Assembly (NCBI GenBank): GCA_029243025.1 | Contig: JAQWSU010000018.1 | Location: forward strand, 89,558 to 153,557 | Reading direction: 5' to 3' | From: Pirellulaceae bacterium | Lineage (GTDB): Bacteria; Planctomycetota; Planctomycetia; Pirellulales; Pirellulaceae | DNA length: 64,000 nt | Part shown: piece after piece, positions 4,579 to 46,619 of the stretch | How the letters are laid out: each line of letters starts with the position of its first letter | Numbering within the stretch: the stretch's first letter is position 1 | Made by a program: the position numbers and the translations under genes | The notes under the pieces: model-generated | The model's database searches: none | What the model was told of the DNA's origin: nothing | The model's input: the letters and a program-made list of their open reading frames with translations, nothing else

Positions 4579-4966
4579 CGCATCTTCTACCGGGACAACA
4601 TTGCAAGAGCCGGGTGCAGTCAAATCCGCCAGCAACAACAGACGGTCAGCGTTCTTTCTATCAGAGTCTTGCACGCTAATTCAAACGCACGGTCACGAGA
4701 CTCATCCCGAAAGCCATTTTTCAACTTAACAATGCACAAGCATTGCCGAGAATCACTATCCGATCGATTGCGCCCAATTGGGCATGACACGAAAGACAAT
4801 CACAACACGGCGTTAACCACCCACCAAAACGATCAAGATCAAAGATTACTCTTCGAGAAATCACGAACGCAAACCCAAGGAACCGCTTTTATTTTTCTGG
4901 CAACAGAAACTTGTTTACGTTAATCGTATCAATCCTCGCGATTCGACATACTCGAGGCACACCAAC
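4579..4966. other. intergenic region, nothing recognised
   Basis: No frame here resembles a protein. The region separates the intact transporter pair from two decayed genes. Confidence 0.4.
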
Positions 4967-5275
4967 GTGAAACTGTTTGACACGACTTTACGAGCTGGGG
5001 AACAAAGTGCAGGGGTGCACTTAACCCCTGCTGAGAAAGCGAGTTTCGCTAGTCGACTCGAAGCAGCAGGCGTCGACGCAATCGACGCCGGTTTCCCCGA
5101 TGCTTCTCGTGTTGATTGGGAAGACGTTCAGGCGGTCGCAGAAGCGACGAATACGGCCACCCTTTCATTTACTCTCAGAGTCGGGAAGCCTCGACCGATC
5201 CGTCATTCCCAATCTGCGATCCAACGTGCGTTGCTAAAGGTGAACATCCCGTCAATGAAATCCAGTTCGACCTAA
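4967..5275 (+). pseudogene. truncated HMG-CoA-lyase/isopropylmalate-synthase-like gene
   Basis: The 102-codon frame starts at GTG 4967. It begins with the conserved opening of HMGL-like TIM-barrel enzymes, KLFDTTLRAGEQSAGVHLT, followed by DAIDAGFP. The family consensus is FDTTLRDGEQ, and here the catalytic-loop Asp is Ala. These are the N-terminal strands of 2-isopropylmalate, homocitrate or citramalate synthases and related lyases, which use an acyl-CoA or cleave one. Only about a quarter of the usual 350-500 residues remains. The frame drifts off consensus after residue 70, stops at 5275, and is followed almost at once by a dinucleotide repeat. Truncation plus the R-A-G substitution indicate a dead remnant. 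Confidence 0.7.
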
Positions 5276-5312
5276 GCTGCAAATACAAAACCGCTATTGA
5301 TCACACAAATTG

Positions 5313-5339
5313 GTGTGTGTGTGTGTGTGTGTGTGTGTG
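5313..5339. repeat. (GT)n microsatellite
   Basis: An uninterrupted run of 13.5 GT units (27 bases). Dinucleotide tracts this long are rare in bacterial genomes and are prone to slippage. It lies exactly at the junction between the truncated HMGL-like gene and the decayed phosphodiesterase gene, so it probably marks a rearrangement or deletion point. Confidence 0.95.
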
Positions 5340-5417
5340 CTGCTACCGGCGAGGCATTCTGGATCTGTTATTCCAAAGTGCTCATCTACATCTCTTCGAA
5401 TAAACATCATACTGGCA

Positions 5418-6758
5418 TTGATCATTATCGACTCGGCAAATCCTGCAATTTTAGAAACGCGAATCGCAGACGGCTCGATGCCTGTTCTATCATCACTTAC
5501 CAAACGCGGTATCACGGTTCCGTTATTGAGTGACAGCGACGCTCTGGACGGCAGTGTATTCAAACCTTTTTAACGGATGTCAGTCCAGGAAAACACGACA
5601 TCCACAAGGAGCGATCATTGGTAAGCGGCCCTTATGCTGATGAATGATCAAAGGCTGAAAATTCACCGGCAGGATCACCGGAGAGTGTCCCGAGCAGCTT
5701 ATATGGCGAAGTCGAGAAGAAGTTTGGCTCGCATCCCATGAAAGTTCAAAACGCTCTTCCGTTAACCGTCACAGGTTATCAAGAAGCAGAAGAAAATCTG
5801 ATTGCCGCTTTGCGAATACGCAGTGATGTATGCAGCTGGCTGTTGCAGCAAGGTCCCTGGAATTTCTTTACGACAACCTTCAGCGAAACACATGTAGCAG
5901 CGCATCAATTCTGGCAATTGCGAGATCCGCAACATCCGCTTTGGGATTCGAAATCGGCGCAAGCGTGCGGCGATACTTTGGAAAACATTTACCGCAGCAT
6001 CGATGTAAATCTCGCGAACTTATTAGAGGCCCTCCCTGCAGATGCGAATGTGGTGTTCATGACACCACAAGGCGTGTCAAACAATTACTCTGGCTCTCAC
6101 CGGTTGCCGAAATGGCGTGCGATGCGCGAAGGACGCACTCCGCAACTTATTTCGACGTAGTATCTCCGAAAGTCTCGTCAACCGCCTGGCATCTCGCAAG
6201 TTCCCGCCAGGCGGCAAGGTATTTCTATGACCCGGATCTGATTATGGCGCTTTGTTACGCGTGAACCTACGAGGAGGTGAACCCCAAGGCGTCGTCGATC
6301 CCGGTGACGATCAAGCAACCCTGCATGCCTTGGTGGATGATTTGAAGAAATCACGAAACTCCAAAACCGGAAAACCAGCGCTAGGCAAGATCTTATTGAC
6401 CCAGGAAAAATATGATGGCCCCTGCGTCAATGACCTACCGGATGCAGTCGCATGCTGGCGAAACGGATTGGCCCATCGGCTCACTGGAATGTCCCCAGCA
6501 CGGCCTGCTAACGGAAGGGACATCCTTCACCGATATCACTACACATCACAAGGACTGGCTGGGATCAGGGGTCCGTTGATCCGCAACGGACGACTCTCAA
6601 AACAACACGACATCCGAGATAGGACTGCCACACTCTATGAACTCGCCAACGAAACTCCACCAGAGGATCTTGACGGAACCTCTTTCATGCCTCAACTCTT
6701 TCACAACGCCAACGAGGCGAGCGATTTTTCTGGATCCAGTTTCTTCAGCGAATCATGA
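5418..6758 (+). pseudogene. decayed alkaline-phosphatase-superfamily phosphodiesterase
   Basis: Three blocks in different frames resemble consecutive parts of a type I phosphodiesterase/nucleotide pyrophosphatase-like protein. Around 5418-5570 there is an N-terminal block with NPAILETRIADGSMPVLSSL. At 5738-6100 there is a middle block ending in NVVFMTPQGVSNNYSGSH. At 6252-6758 there is a C-terminal block opening with VNLRGGEPQGVVDPGDD and containing YDGPCVNDLPD. In intact members these parts form one cytosolic or secreted metal-dependent hydrolase of about 500 residues that cleaves phosphodiesters or phosphonates. Several frameshifts and stops separate the blocks, so no functional product is expected. 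The upstream microsatellite and truncated lyase suggest the whole stretch is decaying. Confidence 0.65.
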
Positions 6759-6934: not shown

Positions 6935-9814
6935 TCATTTTGCCAGCTTGGCCATCTCGATGGAAATCTCTTTCAAGCTTTTTGGCCAACGGTTGAAGGT
7001 CACGCGTTTGGCGTCCGATATTTTGGGAATGGTGATATTTTCGACAAGTGAATCGGCGGGCTGAGCATAAATCAATTGCACTCGATCCAATCCGTAAGTA
7101 CGAGGCAAACTCTTTGCGAAAATTTCCATTTCAGCAGCGTAAAGCGTTGGTTCGTATCCGACATTGTTTTCCGAAGGAACCCAGATCACGCCAGCAACGG
7201 CCATCGGTGTCATGGGGCTAACGCACCAGTTGTAAACATAAGTCGGGATCGTATCTGACGGGATCTCACCGCCCTTCCCCGCCTCAGGAAAAGGCGGTGC
7301 CGCCAGCGGCGCTGCCTTGGAAAGATCATCGCCCCGCTGGCTGGCTGCGACGATCGTCGAGACGAATTGCTTCACTTGCCCTACGTGTTCGTCAACCGCG
7401 TTTCTCGCGACCTCTGTGTTGGGATATTGCATAAACAGCTCATTCAAACGAGCTCGAAACGCCGGCTGATCGACCTCTTTAACGCCCTCAAAAGAAGTCC
7501 ATGAAAGAGGCGAGGCCATTTGCCTTGCCCGTCCGCCTTGTCCCGAGGACATCGTAATGAACCCTTGAGGAATTCCCTTACGATCTAAAGTCTTCGCAAA
7601 GTAATACGCAAACATCGTCACACCCCGATCGCCTTCCCAGGAGTCGGTGCCCATCCATGAGGAACGATATTTGCCACCACCGGTCTCGAACTTCCGTTTC
7701 CGTGGAGTCGGAAAACTGCTGGCGCTGGTCTTTCGCCTGAACTCACGCACCAGCGGCATTGCAACCGGAGGCTTCGCCCCCTTGTCTCGTGCGTTGTATG
7801 CCATTTCACCGTTCAGGAGCGTCGAGCCGGTAAGATACCAAACGTCACCCACAAGAATATCATTGACCGTTCGTTGATGTCCGTGGCTCGAAACGACGGA
7901 CAGAGTAATCGGATTGGCGGAAGCCTCGAGCGCCGGAAAATCGACCGACCATTGCTGAAGCTCATTAGCGATCGCAGTTCGAGTGACATCTCCCAGCGTA
8001 ACAGTCACCTTGACACCCTTGTTCGCGTGACCCCAGACGGGAATTGGCTTGTCCCGTTGAATAATCGCGCCGTCCCGAAAATACTCAACAACTTGCAGGA
8101 TGGGATAATCCGGGTCGGTGTATTGGGCGTATTTCGCCTTGAGCGCCGCTGCTTTTTCCAAATCGTCTTCCTCAAAAATCAATTTGCCATGAATCGAAGC
8201 AAATGGAGTCGCCGGCAAGCCGGCTTGGTTATACAAGTTAGAGTTTTCCGGAACCGCGTTGTAGGCATATTGAACGCCAATAGGCTCGGGCACACTTCCC
8301 GAAGTCACAACAACGGTGTCACCGACAATCACCGCGTTGGCAGCGTGCCAAACTTTGTCGGGACCGCAAAGTCGAAAATGGTTTAATTTGTCATTGGGAG
8401 TCGGCTTGGCTGGCTCAACATACTTGTCCGCTTCCCGGTAGTCTTTGGCCATTCCTTTGTTACCAATCATCAGACCACCAAAGAGACTTTCCTTTTCAAA
8501 AGAAACGATCACTTCATCGCCTCGAACTTCGTACCCGGTGTAAATCGGACCGGTGTAGGCAATGTCACTGCCATACTGCTTTGCCAAAGCCCAGCGCGCC
8601 AACCGCATTCCCGGGTGAAGTTTGTTGTAGTAATGAATCCCTTGCGGTCGAGCTGAATTTAAGTCTGACTGAACAACCATCCCAACGTGATCTCGGTTGT
8701 TCATGAAAAACATGTGCTGGACTTGCCGGATGTCTGCGAATGCAACGGAATCCGAATTGGGAGATCCATAACACTGCATTTGGGTAAAATAGAATGGCAT
8801 CTCGGGCATCCCCCAAGCATCTCTCCAGCCGTTCACAAGAGCTTCCATTCTTGCGGCGTAAATCCTGCCATCTCCCGAATTGCTTGTGCCCTGGCACCAG
8901 ATTGCTCCGCGAACCGCGAAGGGAATCACTGGATTAATTTTCCCATTGAAGAACTGGGATGGGCCCCGCCACATCCCGGCGATCCCAGGCAGGTTGGGAT
9001 GAGCAGCAACTCTGCCACCTGCGTCGGCGGCGTCACCGGCAACTGTTTGCCAAGCCTTTAAATCCGCGTAGTACTTTTCAAACGCCCGGTGCCCCTGCTC
9101 AATCCTCGGATCCGCATCATGAATCAAATCGACGTCGCTCTCCAGTTGAGCATGCTGCTCGATTGCCTCGCGCTGAGTAAACGCTTCAATCCTGGTATTG
9201 CTATGGGCACTCAACAGAATACCGATCGGCACGTCCAATTCCTTGTAAAGTTCGTAGGCAAACGACAATGACAGTGCGGAGAAACTGCCGGCATTTCCGC
9301 GTGTCTTCCATCCCCCCTCCGACGTGGCTGATTTTTGAGGAAACAAAGCAGACACCGTATTGATATTGATTTCGCGTATCGGAATGTCGGTCTCCGAACT
9401 GGCGATATCGCGGGCGATTCCGCTGCACATGCTTTTACCGGCCGTCCAGACCATGTTGGATTGTCCCGAAGAGAACCAAACCTCACCCACCAGCACACGA
9501 TCAAGCACAATCGACTCTTGTCGATCGTTCGCTACCTTCAAGGTGCGTTCTTCACGCGATGCGGTGAGCGGATCAAGCTTGATCATCCAATCGCCATCTT
9601 GGTCAGCAACAGCACGCCGTTTTTGGCCGGCAAATTCGACGGTGACTTCACTGCCAGGTAGGTCAAATCCCCAAACCGGTACCTGCATCTGTCTTTGCAG
9701 GACCATATTACTTGTGAATGGAACTGCTAACTCAAGCTTTTGATCGGCGATCGCAACCGCAGAACCAGAGAGGAAGAAAAACGAGACAAGAACAGTCATT
9801 TTGTTTCGGGTCAT
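6935..9814 (-). CDS. sialate O-acetylesterase-like protein, two domains
   Basis: A secreted carbohydrate esterase of about 959 residues. The ATG at 9814 gives a clean signal peptide (MTRNKMTVLVSFFFLSGSA, processed near AIA-DQ). The frame is open to a start at 9871, but that would add a polar leader. The first half is a SASA/DUF303-type SGNH esterase with the nucleophile motif SSGQSNM (Ser about residue 119) after the LVGEVWF strand. Family members remove O-acetyl groups from sialic acids or plant and algal polysaccharides. The second half (from about residue 600) repeats the leading beta-domain (FRDGAIIQRDKPIPVWGHA, then ILVGDVWYLTG), but at the nucleophile position it reads TGSTLLN. It therefore looks like a degenerate second copy, about doubling the usual 450-650 residue length. 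It faces a PEP-CTERM gene divergently. A small decayed fragment of a related gene lies at 41.0-41.3 kb. Confidence 0.85.
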   Translation of the reverse strand: MTRNKMTVLVSFFFLSGSAVAIADQKLELAVPFTSNMVLQRQMQVPVWGFDLPGSEVTVEFAGQKRRAVADQDGDWMIKLDPLTASREERTLKVANDRQESIVLDRVLVGEVWFSSGQSNMVWTAGKSMCSGIARDIASSETDIPIREININTVSALFPQKSATSEGGWKTRGNAGSFSALSLSFAYELYKELDVPIGILLSAHSNTRIEAFTQREAIEQHAQLESDVDLIHDADPRIEQGHRAFEKYYADLKAWQTVAGDAADAGGRVAAHPNLPGIAGMWRGPSQFFNGKINPVIPFAVRGAIWCQGTSNSGDGRIYAARMEALVNGWRDAWGMPEMPFYFTQMQCYGSPNSDSVAFADIRQVQHMFFMNNRDHVGMVVQSDLNSARPQGIHYYNKLHPGMRLARWALAKQYGSDIAYTGPIYTGYEVRGDEVIVSFEKESLFGGLMIGNKGMAKDYREADKYVEPAKPTPNDKLNHFRLCGPDKVWHAANAVIVGDTVVVTSGSVPEPIGVQYAYNAVPENSNLYNQAGLPATPFASIHGKLIFEEDDLEKAAALKAKYAQYTDPDYPILQVVEYFRDGAIIQRDKPIPVWGHANKGVKVTVTLGDVTRTAIANELQQWSVDFPALEASANPITLSVVSSHGHQRTVNDILVGDVWYLTGSTLLNGEMAYNARDKGAKPPVAMPLVREFRRKTSASSFPTPRKRKFETGGGKYRSSWMGTDSWEGDRGVTMFAYYFAKTLDRKGIPQGFITMSSGQGGRARQMASPLSWTSFEGVKEVDQPAFRARLNELFMQYPNTEVARNAVDEHVGQVKQFVSTIVAASQRGDDLSKAAPLAAPPFPEAGKGGEIPSDTIPTYVYNWCVSPMTPMAVAGVIWVPSENNVGYEPTLYAAEMEIFAKSLPRTYGLDRVQLIYAQPADSLVENITIPKISDAKRVTFNRWPKSLKEISIEMAKLAK

Positions 9815-10396
9815 AGCTGTCACTTCGCGCGAAGAGTGGAGAGAATGAAGCCGCCTGGAATAGAGTTTCAATATTCTATGTCACGAGTTGTCACCGCTCT
9901 AGTCTTTTTCGGTGATCATGAAATGTTCGTAAAAGGTACAGTGATTCCCTACCGGCTGATTTGCCGATCCGAAAACTAACAGCAAGGGCTTGTCAAAGAC
10001 ACTCTTGCGATTCCGACTTCAACCAATTAGCTGCCATCCGTGAGGGTACGGCTAATCTCCTACCGGTATTTAATGGGTGCGGACACTCCGCTTTTCCGTT
10101 CCCAACCTGCAAGTCGTTGACCTCCTTAAGAGGTAACTGCCCAGCTGATTTCCGCGGGGAACCTCCAACTGGCAGATCGCCACGGTCCTTGAAAGGATCG
10201 ACATAAAAGTCCACCGATTCATTTACAAAGCCCTCGCGAGCATATTTGTTCAGCCTCATAGCTGACAGCAGAAGTGCCCGAAACAACATGGACCACCACC
10301 AGACATTTGACTGAAAATTCTGGCAATGAGTGTTAACAACGATTAAAGTGATGAGCACTTTCCTAAGAATGCGCTCCTTCTCAAAAAGGGTGGAAC
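9815..10396. other. divergent intergenic region
   Basis: This region separates the divergently transcribed esterase and the CBM9-like gene and must contain both promoters. The only long frame (121 codons, minus strand, 9993-10358) has no recognisable domain and no ribosome-binding site, and is probably not a gene. The last bases, AAAAAGGGTGG about 7-15 nt before the ATG at 10397, serve as a plausible ribosome-binding site. Confidence 0.4.
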
Positions 10397-11785
10397 ATGA
10401 AAGTCTTGACGATATCTTTTATTGCGGTTGTAAGTTTCAACTTTGCCGCTGCGCAACTTTTTGCTGGCCCTAAGGGCACGATCAGTGTCCCTCGCATTTC
10501 GTCACCGATAACCGTTGACGGCGATTTCAGCGACTGGCCGTTGGCAGCCTATACAACGATTGCTCAGCAGCCAGAGTTTCCCGACGCACAGGGCGTGGGA
10601 ATTCCTACGGGCGCAAATGGCGACCACCTTGTTTGGGATGTCGATCGTGTTGGACCGTTTAACGGGACCGACTTAGAGATTTGGGAGCCAGACAATGCAT
10701 CGGAGTTTGGGGCGTCTATGTACTTCGCCTACGATGACAACTTCCTCTACATTCTAGGCGTCTTCATTGATGAAGAACTCAACGGTGTTCGATCAGAAGG
10801 TGGACTCACGAATTTCCTCAACGATGGATTCGAAATCTACATCGATGCGTTGGGTGACAGCGAAGAAGATGGCCTGATCGCGGAATTCGGATTCCCGACC
10901 ATCGACGACGAGGAACCCAATACCGACGATTTCCAACTAACGTTCGGTCTCAACGAATCATTCCCACCCGCTCAACCGCAGCCTGGCGATGTGGGCGCGG
11001 AGCTTCATATGGAACGTGCTGGCAACCCAGATATCGTCGGATTAGCTTACTTAGAGGACGTGCGAGAGGAAACCGATTTCTCCGCTGTCGGTGGGCACGA
11101 TGTGGCTGCGAAATCGTATGATGACCTAGGCGCTGCAGGCGCGCAAAATCCTGAAGTCTTGGCCAATCCTAACGAAACTTTCACAGGCTATGCGGCCGAA
11201 CTGGTCTTACCATTTGGATTCAATGAAGGGTTCACACCAGACCAGAACATGGGTTTCGCTTTGTTTTGGCGAGATGTTGATGATCATGAAGATCCACAGC
11301 CTGGATTTGGTGGAGGAAATATCTTTTGGACCGACTGGTCTCAAAACGTCACGACCAGCGGCACCGGTGAAGATGGCAACTTATTCCACGCAGGTAACTG
11401 GGGAGAACTCCAATTCGTGGGAAGTCTGGACCCAACTCTTCGCCTCGATGATGGATCGCTAACGGATCCTAGCGAGCGTGCCGATTACGTGCACGATGTT
11501 CTCGGTACTTGGATTGGTGACTCGAACTTTGACGGCGAGTTCAATTCGACTGACTTCGTTGTGGTCTTTACGGCTGGCGAGTATGAGGACGAGTTAAACG
11601 ACAATTCGACCTGGTCCGAAGGCGATTGGAATGGCGACGGCGAGTTCAATTCAAGCGATTTTGTCTCAGCCTTCACAGACGGTGGCTACGAAGCGGGGGT
11701 CCGTGCGGCAGCTGCCGTTCCGGAACCGAGTAGTGTTGTACTTCTTTTGCTAGGTGCCCTGGCGTTTGTTCGTCGTCGTCGCTGA
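10397..11785 (+). CDS. CBM9/DOMON-like PEP-CTERM secreted protein
   Basis: 462 residues, with an N-terminal signal peptide (MKVLTISFIAVVSFNFAAAQ). From about residue 30 to 330 there is a beta-sandwich of the CBM9/DOMON type, with the typical opening ITVDGDFSDWP and the strand DDNFLYILGVFIDEE. Such domains bind sugars or haem in extracellular enzymes and surface proteins. Residues about 370-440 hold two calcium-loop repeats (DSNFDGEFNSTD and DWNGDGEFNSSD), a dockerin-like module. The C-terminus VPEPSSVVLLLLGALAF plus RRRR is a textbook PEP-CTERM exosortase signal: PEP motif, transmembrane helix, basic cluster. The protein should therefore be exported and anchored or processed at the outer surface. 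No catalytic domain is visible. Confidence 0.9.
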   Translation: MKVLTISFIAVVSFNFAAAQLFAGPKGTISVPRISSPITVDGDFSDWPLAAYTTIAQQPEFPDAQGVGIPTGANGDHLVWDVDRVGPFNGTDLEIWEPDNASEFGASMYFAYDDNFLYILGVFIDEELNGVRSEGGLTNFLNDGFEIYIDALGDSEEDGLIAEFGFPTIDDEEPNTDDFQLTFGLNESFPPAQPQPGDVGAELHMERAGNPDIVGLAYLEDVREETDFSAVGGHDVAAKSYDDLGAAGAQNPEVLANPNETFTGYAAELVLPFGFNEGFTPDQNMGFALFWRDVDDHEDPQPGFGGGNIFWTDWSQNVTTSGTGEDGNLFHAGNWGELQFVGSLDPTLRLDDGSLTDPSERADYVHDVLGTWIGDSNFDGEFNSTDFVVVFTAGEYEDELNDNSTWSEGDWNGDGEFNSSDFVSAFTDGGYEAGVRAAAAVPEPSSVVLLLLGALAFVRRRR

Positions 11786-11870
11786 ATGCCTTGTGCCAAT
11801 AATCATCGCCCCGATAAAGGGGGCGATGCTCGTCGTCGATTGAATCAGAAAGAAGCACACCTTACGTGGC

Positions 11871-11986
11871 CGAAAAAGGTGTCAGCTACCTTTCTGGCGA
11901 ATTAGATGGTTTGAGATGGGAGAGGCGTGCTCGTTCTTGTGCGAAGCAGACGCGGTCACAAAAAGGTAGCTGACACCTTTTTCAGC
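11871..11986. repeat. dispersed inverted-repeat element, copy A
   Basis: An element of about 115 bp bounded by near-perfect inverted arms: AAAAAGGTGTCAGCTACCTT at 11873-11892 and its complement at 11961-11982. The core contains CGTGCTCGTTCTTGTGCGAA and CAGACGCGGTCACA. The same core and arms recur at 20.7 kb and 24.4 kb, and a weaker version at 27.2 kb. It sits just past the 3' end of the minus-strand gene at 12015. It may act as a terminator-like hairpin or be a small non-autonomous mobile element (REP/MITE-like). Confidence 0.8.
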
Positions 11987-12014
11987 CTGCACCGTTGCAG
12001 CCACCGAGCGATGA

Positions 12015-12560
12015 TCACACTCCCGGCACGTGCTTGTTTTCACGAACATCGTTGAGCGTATCGTCATCTTCAATATGAAGAAACGTCTCAATTTGGCGTT
12101 CAATCTGGCTCGCCACATCGGCATCGTCGAGCTCGCCAAGATCAAGCAATTCCAACGAGTCTCCGTTCTTGAACAACACCCAAATCTCATAGGATGAAGT
12201 TGTGCCTGCTACCGTTCGGACGATGACTTGTTTGATGTTGGCGGTCCAAGCAGTCCACCCAAGTGGCAACGGCATTGGAATTGGACGTTGACGAAGGGAA
12301 ATCTTATCGCGGGTGACATGCAATACCGTTCGATTCAGCCAAGCCGCAGCAACAAGATAAATCATCGCCAGCATGATCAGCATGTTGAAGGCAACCACGA
12401 TAGGATCGGAAATACGGGCTAGAATCGTCGGAATCGTTATCCACGCCATCACGATCGCCGCAGCCGAGAAAAAGAATCGCCCGCTAGGCTGAAGGGTGTC
12501 GACTGCATAGAACAGATTGCAATGGTCGGATTTGCTTGTGAAGCTCATCAATGACTCCAA
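12015..12560 (-). CDS. small membrane protein with a cytosolic PH-like tail
   Basis: 181 residues. Two hydrophobic helices near residues 28-50 and 55-72 are followed by a hydrophilic tail (RTVLHVTRDKISLRQRPIPM...EIWVLFKNGDSLELL). The layout resembles bacterial PH/YcxB-like membrane proteins, but no family is certain. A truncated paralogue lies at 24.5-24.85 kb and shares the stretch NRTV-x-x-VTRDKIS, the KNGDSLE block and the IERQIETFLH end. ATG at 12560, or possibly at the Met four codons on. The dispersed repeat follows its 3' end in both copies. Function unknown. Confidence 0.65.
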   Translation of the reverse strand: MESLMSFTSKSDHCNLFYAVDTLQPSGRFFFSAAAIVMAWITIPTILARISDPIVVAFNMLIMLAMIYLVAAAWLNRTVLHVTRDKISLRQRPIPMPLPLGWTAWTANIKQVIVRTVAGTTSSYEIWVLFKNGDSLELLDLGELDDADVASQIERQIETFLHIEDDDTLNDVRENKHVPGV

Positions 12561-29797: not shown

Positions 29798-30967
29798 TCA
29801 ATCCGAACAGGAGAAAAATCGCAAATAGAGTTCGCAGACAAAAATCAGTGCCAAAACCAAAACGACAAGTAAAGCGAGAGTTGAAAAAGGGACCATCGCG
29901 GTCCCTGAGAGAGTCGGCCTGGCAGGAGCAACGGTAATTGTGGAAATAAGATCGCCTTGGATCCACTCGGTCATCTGGTCAAATTGATCGAGCCCACCTG
30001 CGGCTACCTGACGCGGAGGTTCGTTCAAGTTGGTCTCATTAAACTCTAACGCACCGGCTGGAATGTGATAATCGAAGACCGTGTCGTCAACCTGGTTAAC
30101 GGCGCATTCCACGACTCGGGTCCGAGAAGTAATTTCCTCGCTGCCGCTATTTCCAGCTGGATCGTTTGACCTAAAAACCGTGTTTTCAATCACCCCTGGA
30201 ACCCAAATCTGATCTGAAAATTTCTCTTGTTCCAAAAGCCGATAGCGCTGAAGTCGCTGTCCTGTTTGTGCATCCGACAATTCTCGTTGCACCAAGCAAC
30301 CGGCTCGTTCGGTGTCGATCCACAAACAGTCGACACCGGGCTGTTCCAGCACATGACACCAGCGGCCATCGACCTGCTCCAGCTTTAATCGCAAATGAAG
30401 ATGTGTTTGTTTTGACAAGGCAACGTCTCTCAACACATATGGCAAATCTGCGTACCGAGGAGCTTCCCGGTCTGTCATTGGCCAATGTCCTGTCGCTAAA
30501 AAGAAAAATGCCGTCTGCAGACTACCTGGCAGTGGATCCTGCGGTTTAAGCGGTTGGCGAAAGAACATGCGATCCAACGGATATTCGTTGTAAACCTGAC
30601 CTTTTTGGACGTAAGCCCGCTGTCGGTGAGGGTCGAGTTTCCAGTTCATTGAGTCATGGCCGTGCGCCGAATCGTAAAAAAGAAAGTGCGGTGCTTTCGC
30701 ACAGAGCGCAACACGATAAAACGCGTTGGCATCGGCGAGGGCACGGTGTGCATATTCGCCAAGGCAACAGACGCGGATCGATTCGAGTTTTTGAGTCGTT
30801 TCCAGAATCTTTCTCTTCAGTGACTCAACGGTTTCCGTTGCAGAAGGTCTGTTAGAGATTGGCTGGTCTTCTGTCGGCGACCGCCCTTGACCGGCCACTT
30901 GATCAGTGCAGCACGCGACAAACAACAGCGAGACAAATCCGGCAAACAGGACGTTTTGGGCTATCAT
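29798..30967 (-). CDS. operon gene 5: membrane-anchored protein, paralogue of the C-half of gene 4
   Basis: About 389 residues from the ATG at 30967, chosen because GAGGTG lies 8 nt upstream and the product starts with a signal or lipoprotein-like peptide (MIAQNVLFAGFVSLLFVACC). The frame also opens at a TTG at 30994. A large extracytoplasmic part contains strand-like repeats with CLWIDTERAGCLVQRE and RLQRYRLLEQEKFSDQIWVP, and ends in a transmembrane helix (LALLVVLVLALIFVCELYL). The strand pattern YLDPE/LWIDTE...V-R-E...RLQR...W-P is shared with residues about 480-560 of gene 4, so the two are paralogous. The fold may be LolA-like, which is inference only. It lies 23 bp after gene 4. Confidence 0.6.
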   Translation of the reverse strand: MIAQNVLFAGFVSLLFVACCTDQVAGQGRSPTEDQPISNRPSATETVESLKRKILETTQKLESIRVCCLGEYAHRALADANAFYRVALCAKAPHFLFYDSAHGHDSMNWKLDPHRQRAYVQKGQVYNEYPLDRMFFRQPLKPQDPLPGSLQTAFFFLATGHWPMTDREAPRYADLPYVLRDVALSKQTHLHLRLKLEQVDGRWCHVLEQPGVDCLWIDTERAGCLVQRELSDAQTGQRLQRYRLLEQEKFSDQIWVPGVIENTVFRSNDPAGNSGSEEITSRTRVVECAVNQVDDTVFDYHIPAGALEFNETNLNEPPRQVAAGGLDQFDQMTEWIQGDLISTITVAPARPTLSGTAMVPFSTLALLVVLVLALIFVCELYLRFFSCSD

Positions 30968-30990
30968 GAAAATCACCTCGTTGGTGCGAA

Positions 30991-32922
30991 TCAAAAATGC
31001 AGGCTTGTTTTTTGGGTCAAACGTTGCCGTCCCAGGCGGACCAACAAGAGTAGATTGGCGATCACCAAAATCACCATCGCTCCACCCCAGAGGCTTGACG
31101 CCGCTGAAGACGGATTCGCAAATTCCCCCTCGAAACGATCAACCAGTTGGTCGAGCTCTTGCTCTTGCATCGAAACCACGTAATAGGGGATAGGTACATC
31201 TGCAGAGACGTTTGGATAAAGGCGTTCGTCGGCAATGCACAAGCCGCATTGTGAATCATTGAGTCGAAAGGTTTCCTCGGTACGCTCTAGCGCGAACTCA
31301 GCGAGAGTGATTCGCTCGATGTAAACAGGTTCGGCATGACTGTTACGGGTGATCGGCCATGGCGGCGAATGATGGATAATTCTAGCCCGTTGAGGCAACC
31401 AAAGGTCGGTGCCGCCAACCTTCCTGAAATCTGTCGCGAACGTGACTCTTTGCAGGCGATGACCTCGGTCTCGCTCCTCATGACGCACGAGAGCGTATCC
31501 CATTTCAGGATCCAGGTAAAAGCTGGATTGAGACTCGAAATCCTCAACGGAAACGTGAAGGTACGTTTGGCCACCGAGTTGAATGGATTGGCAATCGGTG
31601 TTAGCTGATTCGGAGTCGATCGCCAACAAAACCAAAGATCTGCAACCACTGATTCCGTGATCCGCTTGAAACTCAGGAATTCGAAAACCGGCCGCCCTCG
31701 GAAAGCTGACTTCGATCTCTGAAATGGTTTCTCTCGGATCCATCCGTTCAAGCGGACGAATGTGCAGGAATTTGGGCGGGCTTCCTACCGCCCTTGCTTT
31801 GGCTGTAAATAAACAGAATCCGTCAAACGCAGATTCCCGAAACCGTCTTTCGGGTTTGCCGAACTGCCAAGTATCTTGCTGGAGTTTTGATTCGTGGAAA
31901 AAGGCGGATAAATGATAACAGCCTTCTGCAAAGCGATACTCAAAAAAACTTTCCAGCCAGAAACCGGGATCGACCTGCTGCTTGATCGACTGTTGCAAGT
32001 CGGACTGATTAGTGAGGAGTTCTCGTTGGCAGCTCCACTTCACTTGAAAAACGTCAAGCTGTTTGGCGTTGTGTCTCAATTGATGACCTACAGTGCTCGG
32101 TAGCTCATTACAAAATCCGTCGGCGGGGTCGATCAACAGGAACCCGCTCAAGAAAAGTATGGTAACGAGCGGTTTCCTCTCGGCAATCAAGCCGTTTGGG
32201 AGCGTGGCGGCACGTTTCCCCGAAAACCTTCGAAAACGAAATCCAAGGTAAAGTGCAAAAATGAAACCGCTAAGGGCGACGGCCAGGTAAGTCATTGCAG
32301 GCGACGAATAAGACGAGTCTATTACCAACATATGCCCAGTCCAGTGTCGCAAGAAGTCGTCGAGGCTGACTTCGTTCCATGTCATCTCGCTTCCGCTTGC
32401 CATGCGAACCTGTTGTTGTTCGGTGATGCAATAGACAACGTGGAACCCACTCTGTCGTCCACGGCCATTGTCAAGCAATACGATTGCTGGAAGTTGGAGC
32501 TCCTTAATCGATTCCACCGATGTCATCACTGGCTTTACAATGGCACAAGGTAAGCCTTTGGCGATCGACCGTTTTTTTAGATCTGTGAGGCTTGGCTTTT
32601 CTTTCAGAGAATCTCGTAAGACCTGGTAGTCAGCCGAGACACCATGCAATTTCCAAAATAAAAACAAACTGTTGACGCCATCGTGTTGAGGTGAACGCCA
32701 CGCGGATCGGTCGTCTGAGGAGACGTGGCTTCTGTGTTCATCGGCGTTCGCAAATGATCCACTTTCGTCGTAATGACCTTTCCCAAAGAACACGCTACCG
32801 ATGAAGGCGCAGCTAAAAACGACAAATCGCTGCGCGCGAATTCTCAAGGTTCGAATTCGGACGATCGACGGATGCTGATCTCGCTCAGACCCAAGCTTTT
32901 CTTTTTCATTCGATCCATACAT
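30991..32922 (-). CDS. operon gene 4: degenerate C39-like domain fused to a second domain
   Basis: 643 residues, ATG at 32922 with GGAGG 13 nt upstream, overlapping the end of gene 3 by 17 bp. After a basic N-terminus and a hydrophobic helix (near residues 33-47), residues about 80-210 align with gene 3's C39-like peptidase. HDGVNSLFLFWKLHG corresponds to ACGFNCLYLLLRLSH, and GFHVVYCI to GHYYLLT. The position of the catalytic Cys is Asp here, so the domain cannot act as a thiol peptidase. Next come a helix (PAMTYLAVALSGFIFALYLG), another hydrophobic stretch (TILFLSGFLLI), a long beta-rich extracytoplasmic domain, and a C-terminal membrane helix (MVILVIANLLLLVRLG). The second domain is paralogous to gene 5. 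A binding or chaperone role for the precursor is possible. Confidence 0.6.
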   Translation of the reverse strand: MYGSNEKEKLGSERDQHPSIVRIRTLRIRAQRFVVFSCAFIGSVFFGKGHYDESGSFANADEHRSHVSSDDRSAWRSPQHDGVNSLFLFWKLHGVSADYQVLRDSLKEKPSLTDLKKRSIAKGLPCAIVKPVMTSVESIKELQLPAIVLLDNGRGRQSGFHVVYCITEQQQVRMASGSEMTWNEVSLDDFLRHWTGHMLVIDSSYSSPAMTYLAVALSGFIFALYLGFRFRRFSGKRAATLPNGLIAERKPLVTILFLSGFLLIDPADGFCNELPSTVGHQLRHNAKQLDVFQVKWSCQRELLTNQSDLQQSIKQQVDPGFWLESFFEYRFAEGCYHLSAFFHESKLQQDTWQFGKPERRFRESAFDGFCLFTAKARAVGSPPKFLHIRPLERMDPRETISEIEVSFPRAAGFRIPEFQADHGISGCRSLVLLAIDSESANTDCQSIQLGGQTYLHVSVEDFESQSSFYLDPEMGYALVRHEERDRGHRLQRVTFATDFRKVGGTDLWLPQRARIIHHSPPWPITRNSHAEPVYIERITLAEFALERTEETFRLNDSQCGLCIADERLYPNVSADVPIPYYVVSMQEQELDQLVDRFEGEFANPSSAASSLWGGAMVILVIANLLLLVRLGRQRLTQKTSLHF

Positions 32923-33631
32923 TTACCGATTGATACCTCCAATAAACGGCGACCGTCAGAAGTGTCAAAGAAACCGTCAACGCGATTAATAGCCACCTCC
33001 CCGTCGAGAACGGGCGACTTGGCACAAACACGGCTTGAATCCAATTCGGATTAATGTCAGCTGTCGACAAAAGCACGCATTCCCCTGTCGTTCCATCGAT
33101 CAGTTCGATATTTTCGGAAGAGGCACGGGTCAACAAGTAGTAATGCCCGACTTGGCTGAAATCAGGAGCCGCTCGTCCCATCTCAACGTCGCCTAATTCG
33201 TCAATCACCTGGGAATCGACGAGGAGAATCAGCGGCATTTCAAATTGCTGCAGCTCCGAAGCACTGGCTCGAACAATCGTTCCTGGCACTCCGAATTCCT
33301 GGCTAGCCTGCTTCAGACTCAGAAAGCTGTTACCTGTGTCGGAAATAGTCAAAGAGTGCTCTAACTGTTCGGTGTCAATCTCTTTGTGGGATAACCGCAA
33401 TAGAAGGTAAAGACAATTAAAGCCGCATGCAGCCCGACGGCGCGCTAATTGAGCAGCAGCCTCAGTTGAATTGGCGGTTTTTGTTTCACCAGACGCTTGG
33501 CTGCCCTGCAAAGTGGAGCTCGCGCTTCCCAAACATGGAAGCGCGAGGAGAGTCACTAAAGTGAGGGTCACTCCAGTGAGAGTCCAAATGAAACGGTGCA
33601 ACGAGAAAGAACTTATCATGGTTATGGGCAT
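32906..33631 (-). CDS. operon gene 3: membrane-anchored C39-like cysteine peptidase
   Basis: 241 residues. A signal or anchor helix (residues 14-36) precedes a peptidase C39-type domain. The nucleophile block is RRRAACGFNCLYLLLRL (Cys about 69), the His lies in QVGHYYLLT (His about 163), and the Asp in IELIDGTTG (Asp about 179). This is the order C-H-D of bacteriocin leader peptidases. A C-terminal helix (WLLIALTVSLTLLTVAVYW) follows with only a few residues after it, so the catalytic domain faces the periplasm. In classical systems the C39 domain is cytosolic and fused to an ABC exporter. Here there is neither ATPase nor exporter. The start overlaps gene 2's stop by 10 bp, indicating translational coupling with the small GG-leader protein it probably cleaves. 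An alternative ATG lies 12 bp downstream. Confidence 0.7.
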   Translation of the reverse strand: MPITMISSFSLHRFIWTLTGVTLTLVTLLALPCLGSASSTLQGSQASGETKTANSTEAAAQLARRRAACGFNCLYLLLRLSHKEIDTEQLEHSLTISDTGNSFLSLKQASQEFGVPGTIVRASASELQQFEMPLILLVDSQVIDELGDVEMGRAAPDFSQVGHYYLLTRASSENIELIDGTTGECVLLSTADINPNWIQAVFVPSRPFSTGRWLLIALTVSLTLLTVAVYWRYQSVNVWIE

Positions 33632-34065
33632 GTCGGGACAGGCCGGACCGGGACGACGTTAATATCGCCGACGCAACCCGGAGTTGTGGCGATCTTGATG
33701 CAACGTCCGCCGAAAGCATAGCGGGCTCCGGCAACACGGCAATTGTCAGGAATGGCTCCGCCGCAGGCCGTTACTCCGGCAAAGTATCTTGTGCCACAGT
33801 TGATGCCCGTCATTATGTTAGCCCGTTGCGCGTTGGGACAAACTTGACGGCCCCATTTCCCACCGGGCTTGGCGAAGTAGGCAGAGCACCGTCCCTTTCT
33901 TAATCTGACACAGAGGTCACCACCCACCAGTTGATCGGCGTCTTCGTCTAACACCTGATTCGCCAAGGAGCTACTGACTGCACTGGCATGAATTACCGCA
34001 TAGGACAGCCCGAAGACGGCGAACGATAGAATTGAAACAACGAAGTAACGATTTGTTTTAAACAC
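33622..34065 (-). CDS. operon gene 2: small Cys-rich secreted protein with a double-glycine leader site
   Basis: 147 residues from a GTG at 34065 with AAGGAG 6 nt upstream. Residues 1-29 are a Sec-type signal (YFVVSILSFAVFGLSYAVI, then HASA). Residues 30-49 read VSSSLANQVLDEDADQLVGG, which matches the pattern of double-glycine leaders (hydrophobic and acidic residues ahead of GG) cut by C39 peptidases. The following 98 residues hold nine cysteines and a basic, glycine-rich composition, ending in a short Val/Pro-rich tail. A disulfide-bonded secreted peptide is likely: bacteriocin, signal or structural. No known family was recognised. Its coupling to a C39-like peptidase gene is the main support. 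Confidence 0.65.
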   Translation of the reverse strand: MFKTNRYFVVSILSFAVFGLSYAVIHASAVSSSLANQVLDEDADQLVGGDLCVRLRKGRCSAYFAKPGGKWGRQVCPNAQRANIMTGINCGTRYFAGVTACGGAIPDNCRVAGARYAFGGRCIKIATTPGCVGDINVVPVRPVPTCP

Positions 34066-34101
34066 CTGAAACTCCTTACCAATGAGATTTGAAAAAAGAC
34101 G

Positions 34102-35286
34102 TCATTGCGACAGTGAAGACTGAACGACAAAAATCATGTGAGTGTACGGGCAGACCTCCTCCCAAAAAGTTTGTTCGGTTGCGGTTGCGAGATGTGCCGA
34201 AAGCCAGGTTCCAGCACGACGTAATTGATAATCGGAAGCCAAGAGATCTTCCGGTAAATACATCAGCCATTCGGCCATATGGCCCGTAATCAACACTTGA
34301 CTGCTAACTGAGATTAGCTGTCTGTCATCAGCCGGGCGATCACGCCACCAATCAAGATTCCAAGTACCTTCCAGTTTCTGATTTTTACAGGCAACTCTTA
34401 CAGCATTCTGAATGTATTCGACCAACCTCTGGCGTGTTTTCTCACTTAACACAGGTGTCACTCGGTCAGCCCGAAGCAGCAGGGTTAACGCGTAAAACAC
34501 ATGGGTTCCGCCACAGCTCAGCTGATCAAGCGGGCGATCCATCATGGCCTTAGCTAGATCGTCAAAAGAGAATTCCATTCCATATCGATTTTCCCACCGC
34601 TTCCTGGGCGGGAGATAGGAGGTGTAAGCAACGGTCGTCCAAGCAAGCTCTTGTTGATCCAAATGAAAATTTGCCAGGGAATCTCGTAATACGTCTCGCA
34701 GAGAATAGGTTTTGTCATCAAGAACAAGAGGTTGCGAAAGTTCCGCCCCGAGTTCAGCCAACATGGCCAGGCATTGATCGCGGTGAGACTCATCGGCAGC
34801 ATGCCCGATCGCTCCCTCTTTCGTGGGAAATCGCAAGCCGTAACGCGTGGGTGTAAAACTCGCGTCGCCTAAATACCTTTTGGTCAGATCCCCATTAAAG
34901 ATTAGTTCTCGCAGCAACACCTCCTGTCGTTCCTCCGCCTTGACGATCACGATGGTGCCGTCCCAGCCAAGTAGCTTCAGTAAATGCAAACAGAGGGAAG
35001 GATCTGGAAAACTGTCCGGCGGTAAGACAAAACTCGCCTCGCCTCGAGCGAGCAACGCCAAATCGGAGGACGGTTGAGGCAAGTGAACTCGGTTCACGAC
35101 GTCGAACAATACGGGTGTTTCTCTCGCGTCGTCCGTCAAATTCAGCGTGGCATCCGAGGACGTTTTTGGCGGGGAATCCGGGGACGTCAGCAAGGCTCCG
35201 TCGACGCAACAAAAACGCCAACTCCACCACGCTGCTAAGAATACGAACCCTAGAATTGACGCGTTTCTTACCAACACCACTTCCAC
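34102..35286 (-). CDS. operon gene 1: membrane-anchored alpha/alpha-toroid-like protein
   Basis: 394 residues, starting at a GTG (35286, 35280 or 35277; none is clearly best). An N-terminal helix (ASILGFVFLAAWWSWRF) anchors it to the membrane. The rest is largely helical with repeated small motifs such as SCGGTHVFYALTLLLRAD, RQRLVEYIQNAVRVACKN and VLITGHMAEWLMYLPEDLL. These resemble the helix pairs of six-hairpin or prenyltransferase/squalene-cyclase toroids. No catalytic residue can be named. It is the first gene of the operon, 36 bp ahead of the GG-leader protein. Modification or sensing of the product is conceivable but unproven. Confidence 0.6.
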   Translation of the reverse strand: MEVVLVRNASILGFVFLAAWWSWRFCCVDGALLTSPDSPPKTSSDATLNLTDDARETPVLFDVVNRVHLPQPSSDLALLARGEASFVLPPDSFPDPSLCLHLLKLLGWDGTIVIVKAEERQEVLLRELIFNGDLTKRYLGDASFTPTRYGLRFPTKEGAIGHAADESHRDQCLAMLAELGAELSQPLVLDDKTYSLRDVLRDSLANFHLDQQELAWTTVAYTSYLPPRKRWENRYGMEFSFDDLAKAMMDRPLDQLSCGGTHVFYALTLLLRADRVTPVLSEKTRQRLVEYIQNAVRVACKNQKLEGTWNLDWWRDRPADDRQLISVSSQVLITGHMAEWLMYLPEDLLASDYQLRRAGTWLSAHLATATEQTFWEEVCPYTHMIFVVQSSLSQ

Positions 35287-42545: not shown

Positions 42546-43760
42546 ATGAACATCAACCGCCATCGAATCGAGACCGTCGTAATTCTGGCCCTGGCGGCTG
42601 GTGTGTTGGCAATTGCCGACTCTCCGGCATCGGCGCAAACCATAATCGCTTCTCAGGATTTTGAGGACAATTCCTTGTCTCGCGGCATTCCTGCCGAAGC
42701 TACGGCCGTCGCTCTCGACATCTATGATGATACGACGGGCGTTTACACCATGCCCGGCCTGGGTTTCGATAGTGGCGTGGGCCTTGGATGGACTTATTCC
42801 ACTGACGCGGCCACTCCCGAAGGGGTTACCCGTGGCAACGACAACGGCGACGTCATCGGCGTCTTCATCGACGATAGCAAAGACTTTGGGACCACAAACG
42901 GGCTCGCCGGCGCCCCCGGACAAACCGGGGCCTTCTACCTCGTCGAGGATGCCGATAGCACCTGGACTGTAGCCTTCGATCCCGTCGACACGACCGGCTT
43001 CACGGACTTGATGCTCAGTTTCACTTGGGGCATCGACAATGATGGCGGCGGCAGCACGGCTGGCTCTAACTTCGAAGGGAGCGATTTCATCGACGTCACC
43101 GTGAACGGGGACTCCGTTTTCAAAGTGGATGGTGTCGGCGATTTCCACCTAGACGACGCGACTGGTGGTCTCGACGACCTTGACGCGGACTACATCAACG
43201 CCTTCACACCGGAAAACATTGATATCTCGGCATTGGATGGCCAGATACTCAACATCAGCTTCGCCATCGCTAATAATGCTGCTGCCGAAGACATCGCGTT
43301 CGACAACGTTATGGTCTCCGGCATGGCCGCCGAATTGCCCGGCGACTTCGACGGTGACAACGTCGTAGACGTCAATGACATCAATCAATTCTGCGGCAAC
43401 TATACGTCCGGCGATTCGGTCTTCGACGTCAATGCCGATGGCTCGGTTGATCTGAATGATCACGCTCACTTGATTCAAAACATCCTTGGGACGAGTGCTG
43501 GAGATGCCGATCTGAATGGCTCGTTCGGGACCAGTGATCTGATCGCGGTGTTCACCGAGGGCAAATACGAGCAAGACGTCTCGGCCGGTTGGCACGAAGG
43601 TGAGTTCAACTGTGACGGCCGCTTCGATACGGGCGATCTGGTCGCCGCCTTCCAAGCCGGAACGTATGACCCGAGTGCTGCAGTACAAGCGGTGCCCGAG
43701 CCAGGTGGATGCCTGCTGCTTGTGTTGGGCTTGTTGATAGTAGGGCGTCGGCAAGTTTAG
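42546..43760 (+). CDS. jelly-roll-like PEP-CTERM protein with dockerin-like repeats
   Basis: 404 residues. Signal peptide (VVILALAAGVLAIADSPASA). Residues about 30-260 form an all-beta domain (TIIASQDFEDNSLSRGIP, DSTWTVAFDPVDTTGFTDLM, ILNISFAIANN) like the lectin-type jelly rolls of planctomycete surface proteins. Residues about 265-310 carry one calcium-loop pair (DFDGDNVVDVND, DVNADGSVDLND). A further pair precedes the end (DADLNGSFGTSD, EFNCDGRFDTGD). The C-terminus VPEPGGCLLLVLGLLIVGRR is a PEP-CTERM signal. It has a close, frameshifted paralogue at 45.8-46.6 kb without the dockerin-like part. The phosphoesterase gene begins 49 bp downstream. Confidence 0.88.
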   Translation: MNINRHRIETVVILALAAGVLAIADSPASAQTIIASQDFEDNSLSRGIPAEATAVALDIYDDTTGVYTMPGLGFDSGVGLGWTYSTDAATPEGVTRGNDNGDVIGVFIDDSKDFGTTNGLAGAPGQTGAFYLVEDADSTWTVAFDPVDTTGFTDLMLSFTWGIDNDGGGSTAGSNFEGSDFIDVTVNGDSVFKVDGVGDFHLDDATGGLDDLDADYINAFTPENIDISALDGQILNISFAIANNAAAEDIAFDNVMVSGMAAELPGDFDGDNVVDVNDINQFCGNYTSGDSVFDVNADGSVDLNDHAHLIQNILGTSAGDADLNGSFGTSDLIAVFTEGKYEQDVSAGWHEGEFNCDGRFDTGDLVAAFQAGTYDPSAAVQAVPEPGGCLLLVLGLLIVGRRQV

Positions 43761-45766: not shown

Positions 45767-46619
45767 ATGTACCTGAACAAGCATCGCTGCGGAACCATCG
45801 TAGTTTTTTCACTGGCGGTTGGTGTGCTGGCAATCGCAGGCTCTCCGGCATCGGCCCAAATCATAGTCGCCTATCAAGATTTCGAGGGGAACACTTTGTC
45901 TCGCGGCATACCTGACGAAGCTACGGCTGTCTCGATGGGCTTCTATAATGATACGACAGGCGTTTACACCATGCCTGGCTTAGGTTTCGATAGTGGCACG
46001 GGCCTGGGCTGGGCTCACTCCACCGACGCGGCCACTCCCGAAGGGGGTTACCAAAGGCAGCGATGCCGGAGACGTCATTGGTGTATTCATGGACAATAGC
46101 AGAGACTATGGGACCTCAAACGGGCTCGCCGGAGCCACCGGGCAAACCGGTAACTTCTATGTCGTCGAGGATTCCGATAGCACCTGGACCGTAGCTTTCG
46201 ATCCCGTCGACGCGACCGGCTTCACCGACTTGTTGCTCAATTTCACCTGGGCCATCGATAATGATGGCGGCGGCAGCACAGCTGGCTCTAACTTCGAAGA
46301 GAGCGATTTCATCGAAGTCACCGTAAACGGGGAATCCGTCTTCAAAGTCGATGGTGCAGGCGATTACGACGTTGGAGACGCGGTTGGCGGTCTTGATGAC
46401 CTCGACGCGCCCTACATCAACGCGTTCACGCCAGAAAATATCGATATCTCGGCATATGATGGCCAGATCCTCAATATTAGCTTCGCCATCGCCAACAATT
46501 CGGCTCCCGAAGACATCGCGTTCGACAATGTCATGGTCACCAGTGTTCCCGAACCCGGATCCCTGACACTGCTTGTGCTTGGCAGCCTGTTGTTGTTTTT
46601 TAGGCGCCAACGCACTTGA
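45767..46619 (+). pseudogene. jelly-roll-like PEP-CTERM paralogue with a one-base G-tract frameshift
   Basis: ATG 45767 with AAGGAG upstream. The first 93 codons (VAYQDFEGNTLSRGIPDEAT, GVYTMPGLGFDSG) closely match the protein at 42546. At 46044-46048 there are five G's where the paralogue has four (42822-42825). The frame shifts and ends after 110 codons. The other frame resumes the match (GVTKGSDAGDVIGVFMDNSR, then DSTWTVAFDPVDATGFTDLL, ILNISFAIANN) and ends with the PEP-CTERM signal SVPEPGSLTLLVLGSLLLFF plus RRQRT at TGA 46617-46619. Without the extra G it would be about 284 residues and lack the dockerin-like repeats of its paralogue. Recently inactivated, phase-variable, or a sequencing error. 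Confidence 0.8.

Follow-up and report, generated by a model that had tools for sequence, protein, structure and literature searches.

Peptidases of the C39 family, and the double-glycine leaders that they recognise, are known mainly as parts of ATP-binding cassette (ABC) exporters. In the PCAT/AMS systems (ComA, PCAT1, LahT) a domain of C39 fold with a Cys-His-Asp triad is fused to the transporter and acts on substrates with Leu at -12, Glu at -8, Leu at -7 and a GG or GA pair, and the consensus given in excerpts of the published account is Leu(-12)-(X)3-Glu(-8)-Leu(-7) followed by GG, GA or GS (PMC6363468). One C39 peptidase, FapD of the Pseudomonas Fap amyloid system, is described in excerpts of two reports as carrying a Sec signal, as periplasmic and as required for FapC secretion; the same excerpts call its target unclear and the Fap proteins free of a canonical C39 site (PMC5557850, PMC6173800). 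Here we describe a locus of a Pirellulaceae bacterium in which a precursor with a double-glycine leader, a predicted active C39 peptidase and a dead copy of such a peptidase share one operon without an exporter. It occupies positions 29798-35286, on the minus strand, of the window, by which we mean the whole 64,000-nucleotide stretch of contig JAQWSU010000018.1 that was analysed. We propose that it is a Sec-plus-double-glycine maturation unit, in which Sec would first export the precursor and the peptidase of the locus would then take off its GG leader outside the cytoplasm, and we put the probability of this reading at about 0.7.

Organisation and conservation of the locus

The locus consists of five minus-strand open reading frames (ORFs) in the order g1-g2-g3-g4-g5, separated from g1 to g5 by a gap of 36 bases, overlaps of 10 and 17 bases and a gap of 23 bases (the last taken with the ATG of g5 at 30967), and these frames and spacings agree with a preliminary description of this DNA. 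A sister species of the same genus (G001; contig PBNZ01000015.1, a Planctomycetaceae metagenome-assembled genome) shares all five genes and their order and keeps the GG pair; its amino-acid identity to the window is 296/393 for g1, 109/147 for g2, 146/236 for g3, 417/643 for g4 and 262/386 for g5.

With this species pair included, a relative of g1 stands with a C39 gene at 20 loci in 18 genomes of eight families, with strongly diverged sequences; L014, which holds a g1 fragment only, is excluded from this set. A separate scan for related loci yielded just three. The two genes share a strand in 20/20 loci, at distances that range from an overlap of 132 bases to 2393 bases. A g5-like gene accompanies them in 19 of the 20 and a small Cys-rich precursor likewise in 19, the remaining locus, L073, ending with its contig (as do L116-L118). 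The strict leader motif is present in 17 of the 20, with variants only in L082 (AG) and L140 (GQ). Eight of these loci are those that hold C39 among 40 fetched by g1 score alone, and seven of the eight have the precursor; the other 12 rows, the window included, came from C39 searches. The search for the gene order in other planctomycetes that the preliminary description had proposed therefore recovered the full order in the sister species, and precursor homologues with the GG site beside the peptidase in most linked loci. In the order, the C39 profile reached at least 100 bits in 14/296 genomes and relatives of g1, mostly far weaker than g1 itself, occurred in 257/296, and in a sample of the phylum 4/392 genomes reached at least 100 bits on the C39 profile (the window genome and three others of the same class); these counts are lower bounds, taken from the best 6 (g1, order), 12 (C39, order) and 9 (C39, phylum) candidates per genome. 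Many weaker C39 matches sit in frames of more than 700 amino acids, the size of an ABC exporter as judged by length alone.

The precursor and its leader

The gene g2 (33622..34065) encodes a small Cys-rich protein of 147 amino acids from a GTG start preceded by an AAGGAG box. Residues 1-29 (33979..34065) make up a hydrophobic N-terminus of export type with the AXA-like end HASA, judged from sequence and hydropathy. They are followed by a double-glycine leader at residues 30-49 (33919..33978), which ends in VLDEDADQLVGG with a putative cut after Gly49, and then by a 98-residue core with nine Cys. All three features had been recorded in the preliminary description and are present in the sequence.

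Strict leader motifs were found in 26 of 49 small Cys-rich ORFs near C39 genes, whereas 500 shuffles gave 2.9 on average and never more than 9. The set was gathered by small size, a hydrophobic segment, at least five Cys and proximity to C39 genes, and includes near-copies and some probable non-precursors; a control set of small ORFs distant from C39 genes numbered just 3, too few to be informative. The strict motif near C39 genes exceeds chance. In 24 precursors listed by hand from 20 loci, the positions within the search pattern are Ala at -7 (21/24), Leu, Val or Ile at -4 (24/24), Gly at -2 (22/24) and Gly or Ala at -1 (21/24); outside the pattern, Val or Leu is found at -12 in 22/24 and Glu or Asp at -8 in 19/24. 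The site was set by hand in the variant leaders and in L084, and one of the 24 leaders is that of L116, on a short contig without g1. At the level of sequence, these leaders match the known C39 consensus, also at positions that were not used in finding them. The first Cys lies no more than six residues past the leader site in 23/24 precursors, the exception being L050.

Tandem precursor copies occur in L047, L075, L140 and L151. In L047, 41/43 residues from the Met through the GG are kept between copies, compared with 30/74 in the core. As the copies differ mostly in the core, the leader would seem to be constrained and the core free, as expected if a shared machine reads the leader. The precursor of L047 was duplicated together with the g5 gene, the copies of which are identical at 217/412 positions. 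In contrast, the copies in L075 are near-identical over their full length, so that rapid divergence of the core is no general rule. Tandem precursors, a core that has changed far more than its leader and the joint duplication with g5 would also suit a toxin or bacteriocin unit in which LolA-like proteins are the cognate partners, an alternative that bears on the final role of the product. Against this stand the uniform copies of L075 and the lack of a Pfam match for any of the five precursors tested, and we consider a toxin unlikely.

The peptidase and the search for an exporter

The product of g3 (32906..33631; 241 amino acids) matches Pfam Peptidase_C39 (PF03412) at 40.1 bits against a cut-off of 22 (E 3.8e-10), and its family profile matches the solved ComA/PCAT1 structures in PDB with a best E of 2.6e-13. 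Its triad is Cys69, His163 and Asp179, as expected from the earlier account of a membrane-anchored C39-like protein with an intact triad. Cys and His are invariant in 15/15 aligned C39 rows and Asp nearly so; L047, the frame of which begins past the Cys position, was omitted from this alignment, and L119 and L139-L142 were found later. Hydrophobic segments are present in g3 at 18 and 213. Across the loci, with the Cys located from the C39 profile match, such a segment follows the C39 domain in 19/20, the 15 residues after it have a net positive charge in 16/20, and a segment with a mean hydropathy of at least 1.6 lies ahead of the domain in 15 of the 18 loci that could be judged. Judging from this predicted topology, g3 is most likely anchored in the membrane with its C39 domain outside the cytoplasm.

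A search of the host genome (96% complete) with PF03412 did not find a C39-type ABC exporter. The three matches lie in open frames of 252, 250 and 643 amino acids, the last with a LolA-like second part, and are therefore too short to be a C39-ABC exporter; the same search was positive in 8/14 control genomes. In contrast to the PCAT/AMS systems, the window unit has no fused ABC transporter, its peptidase is anchored and probably periplasmic, and a Sec-type N-terminus precedes the leader; an assignment to PCAT/AMS exporters was rejected because no C39 domain is fused to an ABC transporter.

Cutting of GG leaders by C39 domains is described as cytoplasmic and as taking place in ABC transporters in excerpts of the literature (PMC5557850, PMC10885120), and g3 could in principle act in the cytoplasm in the manner of bacteriocin export, with an unlinked transporter exporting the core. 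However, the hydrophobic N-termini of the precursors lie upstream of the leader, the trailing segment and positive tail recur at the frequencies given above, and the genome search yielded no C39-ABC exporter, so that we regard cytoplasmic cutting as very unlikely. Export before cutting is thus favoured by the hydrophobic precursor N-termini, by the membrane anchor of the peptidase and by the outcome of the exporter search.

The closest precedent for such an arrangement is FapD, which according to excerpts of the reports is, like g3, a C39 peptidase outside the cytoplasm that has no exporter and serves Sec-exported products (PMC5557850, PMC6173800). A C39 peptidase that works in the periplasm and has no exporter is therefore not wholly new (PMC5557850, in part). 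The window unit differs from FapD in that the gene next to the peptidase encodes a precursor with a canonical GG leader. The FapD model NF058616 left g3 unmatched at E<=1, matched g4 only at E 0.19 and gave no match in the host genome at E<=0.001, and with no member of the FapD family in the host genome we rejected the identification of g3 as FapD. Neither FapF nor a Fap amyloid subunit was named among the five genes, in scans that covered those five genes. FapD-like proteins below the cut-off were seen in L159 (G007, 93 bits) and L160 (G002, 84 bits), two relatives that did not match g3.

The preliminary description knew of no system with this set of parts. For the full set this agrees with the top-ranked open-access literature matches, none of which showed a linked canonical-GG precursor combined with a dead partner domain, a toroid and LolA-like proteins; it does not hold for the periplasmic C39 peptidase as an idea, which is already known.

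The degenerate C39 copy and the LolA-like proteins

The C39 match of g4 (30991..32922) falls just under the Pfam cut-off (21.5 bits against 22; E 2.2e-4). In the alignment its entire triad is changed, with Cys replaced by Asp, His by Phe (with a His at the next position) and Asp by Ser; the preliminary description had reported the first of these changes, which is confirmed, and the degeneration is not limited to it. In the g4 model, the C39-like domain (residues 78-202, about 32317-32691) superimposes on PCAT1 8vp5 with Z 15.7 and a root-mean-square deviation (rmsd) of 2.1 over 119 aligned residues, and on the C39-like domain of HlyB, 3zua, with Z 13.7 and rmsd 2.3 over 115. The C39-like folds proposed earlier are thus supported for g4 by its model, and for g3 by the sequence match to solved C39 domains. 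The second part of g4 (residues about 288-570, about 31213-32061) resembles the LolA superfamily in the model (3buu, Z 10.3, rmsd 5.1, 167 aligned; 9tp6, Z 10.2, rmsd 3.6). The C39-like domain of HlyB is catalytically dead. It resembles that of g4 in having a C39 fold without the catalytic Cys, but in place of an ABC transporter g4 carries a LolA-like domain and hydrophobic segments.

The product of g5 (29798..30994, starting at TTG 30994 or ATG 30967), which has a C-terminal hydrophobic segment, is paralogous to the second domain of g4, though diverged from it, as had been suggested (hhalign 94.5%, E 7.5e-8 in direct comparison, and stronger via an intermediate family). Its LolA-like fold is assigned through this paralogy; by sequence, the profile of g5 matched none of the PDB chains at E<=1. 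The dead C39 copy was recognised in only 4/21 toroid-type loci (the window, L009, L012 and L139), and is therefore an optional part; L141 has an additional C39 match (32 bits) that is weak and was not counted as one. Pfam and NCBIfam scans of the five genes gave no family name to g1, g2 or g5. Matches to Humanin, His1_capsid, Ac81 and PEF-CTERM were weak, fell below the curated cut-offs in every case and were rejected as chance.

The toroid family and its relatives in Tad loci

The first gene, g1 (34102..35286), has a GTG start and encodes a protein with one N-terminal hydrophobic segment, the model of which fits alpha/alpha toroids, in keeping with the toroid-like character ascribed to it before. 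It aligns to GH105 4xuv with Z 15.7 and rmsd 3.9 over 258 residues, and its best structural matches, at Z 12-16, include GH105, terpene cyclases, transcobalamin and complement C5, nearly all of which we take to be toroids; mostly helical models often reach Z 14, and the toroid call depends on this presumed identity of the best matches. A shared toroid fold, as modelled here, shows no function. Six residues, His101, His168, Cys258, His262, His336 and His383, are invariant in the C39-type rows (21/21 or 20/20, taking every row with a letter at the position and counting L048 in) and also in 31/31 rows of paralogues. Their conservation in both groups suggests one activity in two settings.

In a tree of 52 g1 rows the C39-linked rows stand apart from the 31 paralogues with support of 99/97, where a row counts as C39-linked if any part of its fetched stretch matches C39; the one exception is L048, at a contig end. 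The second setting is that of Tad loci. Among 32 g1 loci without C39, a 550-amino-acid membrane protein is present in 25, Flp-like pilins in 17, CpaB in 15 and CpaA in 14, on the basis of queries taken from L081 and L083, both of which are among the 32 (as is L048); Pfam confirms Peptidase_A24 and RcpC in L081. What these Tad loci of planctomycete relatives share with the window unit is a toroid gene, here a g1 paralogue, in which the invariant Cys and His recur; they differ from it in having the genes just listed and no C39 in the fetched stretch. It is possible that the paralogue toroid family is an unnamed Tad-pilus accessory in this order. The members of this conserved family come from the 31 loci L046, L051-L072, L074, L076-L081 and L083, which have no C39, and Flp, CpaA or CpaB genes are present in about half of the loci.

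The association of g1 paralogues with Flp-like pilins, CpaB and CpaA raises the alternative that the product of the unit is a building block of a surface structure comparable to the Fap fibre or the Tad pilus, rather than a free peptide; this would be compatible with the same processing. FapD likewise serves an extracellular fibre according to excerpts of the reports (PMC5557850, PMC6173800). In contrast, none of the five genes has a Pfam match to pilin, usher, secretin or beta-barrel families, and the precursor cores vary in length and Cys number. We consider a surface subunit possible, although rather unlikely.

Related loci and neighbouring genes

Stand-alone C39 genes were also seen in loci with no toroid match in the listed stretch. 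The host genome has a second such gene in L123 (G000:C56:6000-18500), at 4239-6415, where the site is GS and not GG; this locus also encodes a small Cys-rich protein and has a gene that weakly resembles g5. L124-L126, L128, L129, L135, L145, L147, L148 and L151 combine a stand-alone C39 gene with small Cys-rich proteins bearing GG or GA leaders, some in tandem arrays. Fusions of C39 to DUF1573 are present in L129 at 4970-6685 (by Pfam) and, by eye, in L049 at 7598-9295 and in L130, L132, L134 and L135. Membrane proteins of MauE type lie beside C39 genes in L126 at 129-599 and L049 at 9486-10643 (by Pfam) and, by eye, in L147, L150, L151, L154, L156 and L158; MauE acts in disulphide maturation, a function that would fit products rich in Cys. 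Directly downstream of the C39 unit of L075, at 10725-12080, is a gene for a protein resembling vitamin K-dependent gamma-carboxylase (HTTM and VKGC_lumenal).

Several neighbours were considered as further parts of the unit and rejected. DUF1559 pseudopilins (near L010 by Pfam, and in L012 and L013 by eye) were set aside because planctomycetes carry very many members of this family. By eye, ArnT/PMT-like genes were seen at eight loci, with Pfam confirming only L128, and MauE, DUF1573 and HTTM genes occur at some loci only; none of these was seen beside the window operon among the listed ORFs. Elsewhere in the window, 42546-43760 and 45767-46619 encode a pair of secreted paralogues whose signal regions are alike; the latter is listed as two overlapping frames and is perhaps broken.

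Proposed maturation route and its implications

We propose that g2 would cross the inner membrane by its N-terminal signal, bringing the double-glycine leader into the periplasm. There the anchored g3 would read the leader through its hydrophobic residues at -12, -7 and -4 and the acidic residue at -8, and would cut after the GG or GA pair, freeing the Cys-rich core for the cell surface or the medium. The degenerate C39 domain of g4, for which the preliminary description proposed a role as receptor or chaperone, probably binds leaders without cutting them, and g4 and g5 are probably LolA-like chaperones or holders for the precursor. The toroid g1 probably serves as an enzyme or as a metal-binding accessory that acts on the small exported protein, and its Tad-side paralogues may act likewise. 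The parts, the leader pattern and the linkage are read directly from the DNA; for g1, g4 and g5 we infer roles from fold and linkage. Sec export and periplasmic trimming had been proposed in the preliminary description, and are consistent with the two successive leaders, with the likely extracytoplasmic position of g3 and with the linkage of the genes, while cutting after GG or GA is what we infer from the fit of the leader pattern. More speculatively, we suggest a two-leader route, Sec and then GG, for Cys-rich surface proteins, with a dead C39-LolA holder and a toroid enzyme shared with Tad systems; this fuller version is tentative, and we would not expect all of it to hold.

Several observations weigh against the proposed maturation unit. 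The hydrophobic segment of the 49-ORF set was used as a gathering filter and so lends no independent support, only the motif having been tested. Some leader sites are variant (AG in L082 and L116, GQ in L140, GS in one L119 copy). The sole C39 frame of L047 lacks the Cys part, L119 has no hydrophobic segment past the domain, the proteins of L009, L011 and L142 have only a weak one ahead of it, and the tails of g3 in the window and in the sister species have no net positive charge, as is also the case in L047 and L119. The mean confidence of two models is low, with a predicted local distance difference test (pLDDT) score of 56.7 for g1 and 51.1 for g4. Finally, a Gln six residues ahead of the Cys, which is presumably its place in known C39 peptidases, is present in 0/15 C39 rows, and catalysis by g3 could therefore differ. 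The role of this Gln is itself doubted in an excerpt of PMC6363468.

The variant sites and the missing Gln would both be accounted for if g3 were a C39 relative that cuts differently or not at all, such as a chaperone or a FapD-like regulator, with the GG serving only as a binding site; FapD too may act on another recognition sequence according to its authors (PMC5557850, in excerpt). However, g3 and its relatives keep Cys and His in 15/15 rows and Asp nearly so, while g4 has lost all three, a contrast that is expected if g3 has been selected for catalysis. We therefore think a non-cutting g3 quite unlikely, and retain a Sec-plus-double-glycine maturation unit as the preferred reading.

The unit supplies a named candidate substrate and site, and thereby opens a direct test of what FapD and other periplasmic C39 enzymes cleave. 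The toroid and LolA-like families are unnamed in Pfam and NCBIfam, and with the toroid paralogues in Tad loci the unit offers a handle on two unnamed envelope families. If the proposed route is correct, the C39 loci that have no toroid would make it a general route of envelope maturation in the phylum.

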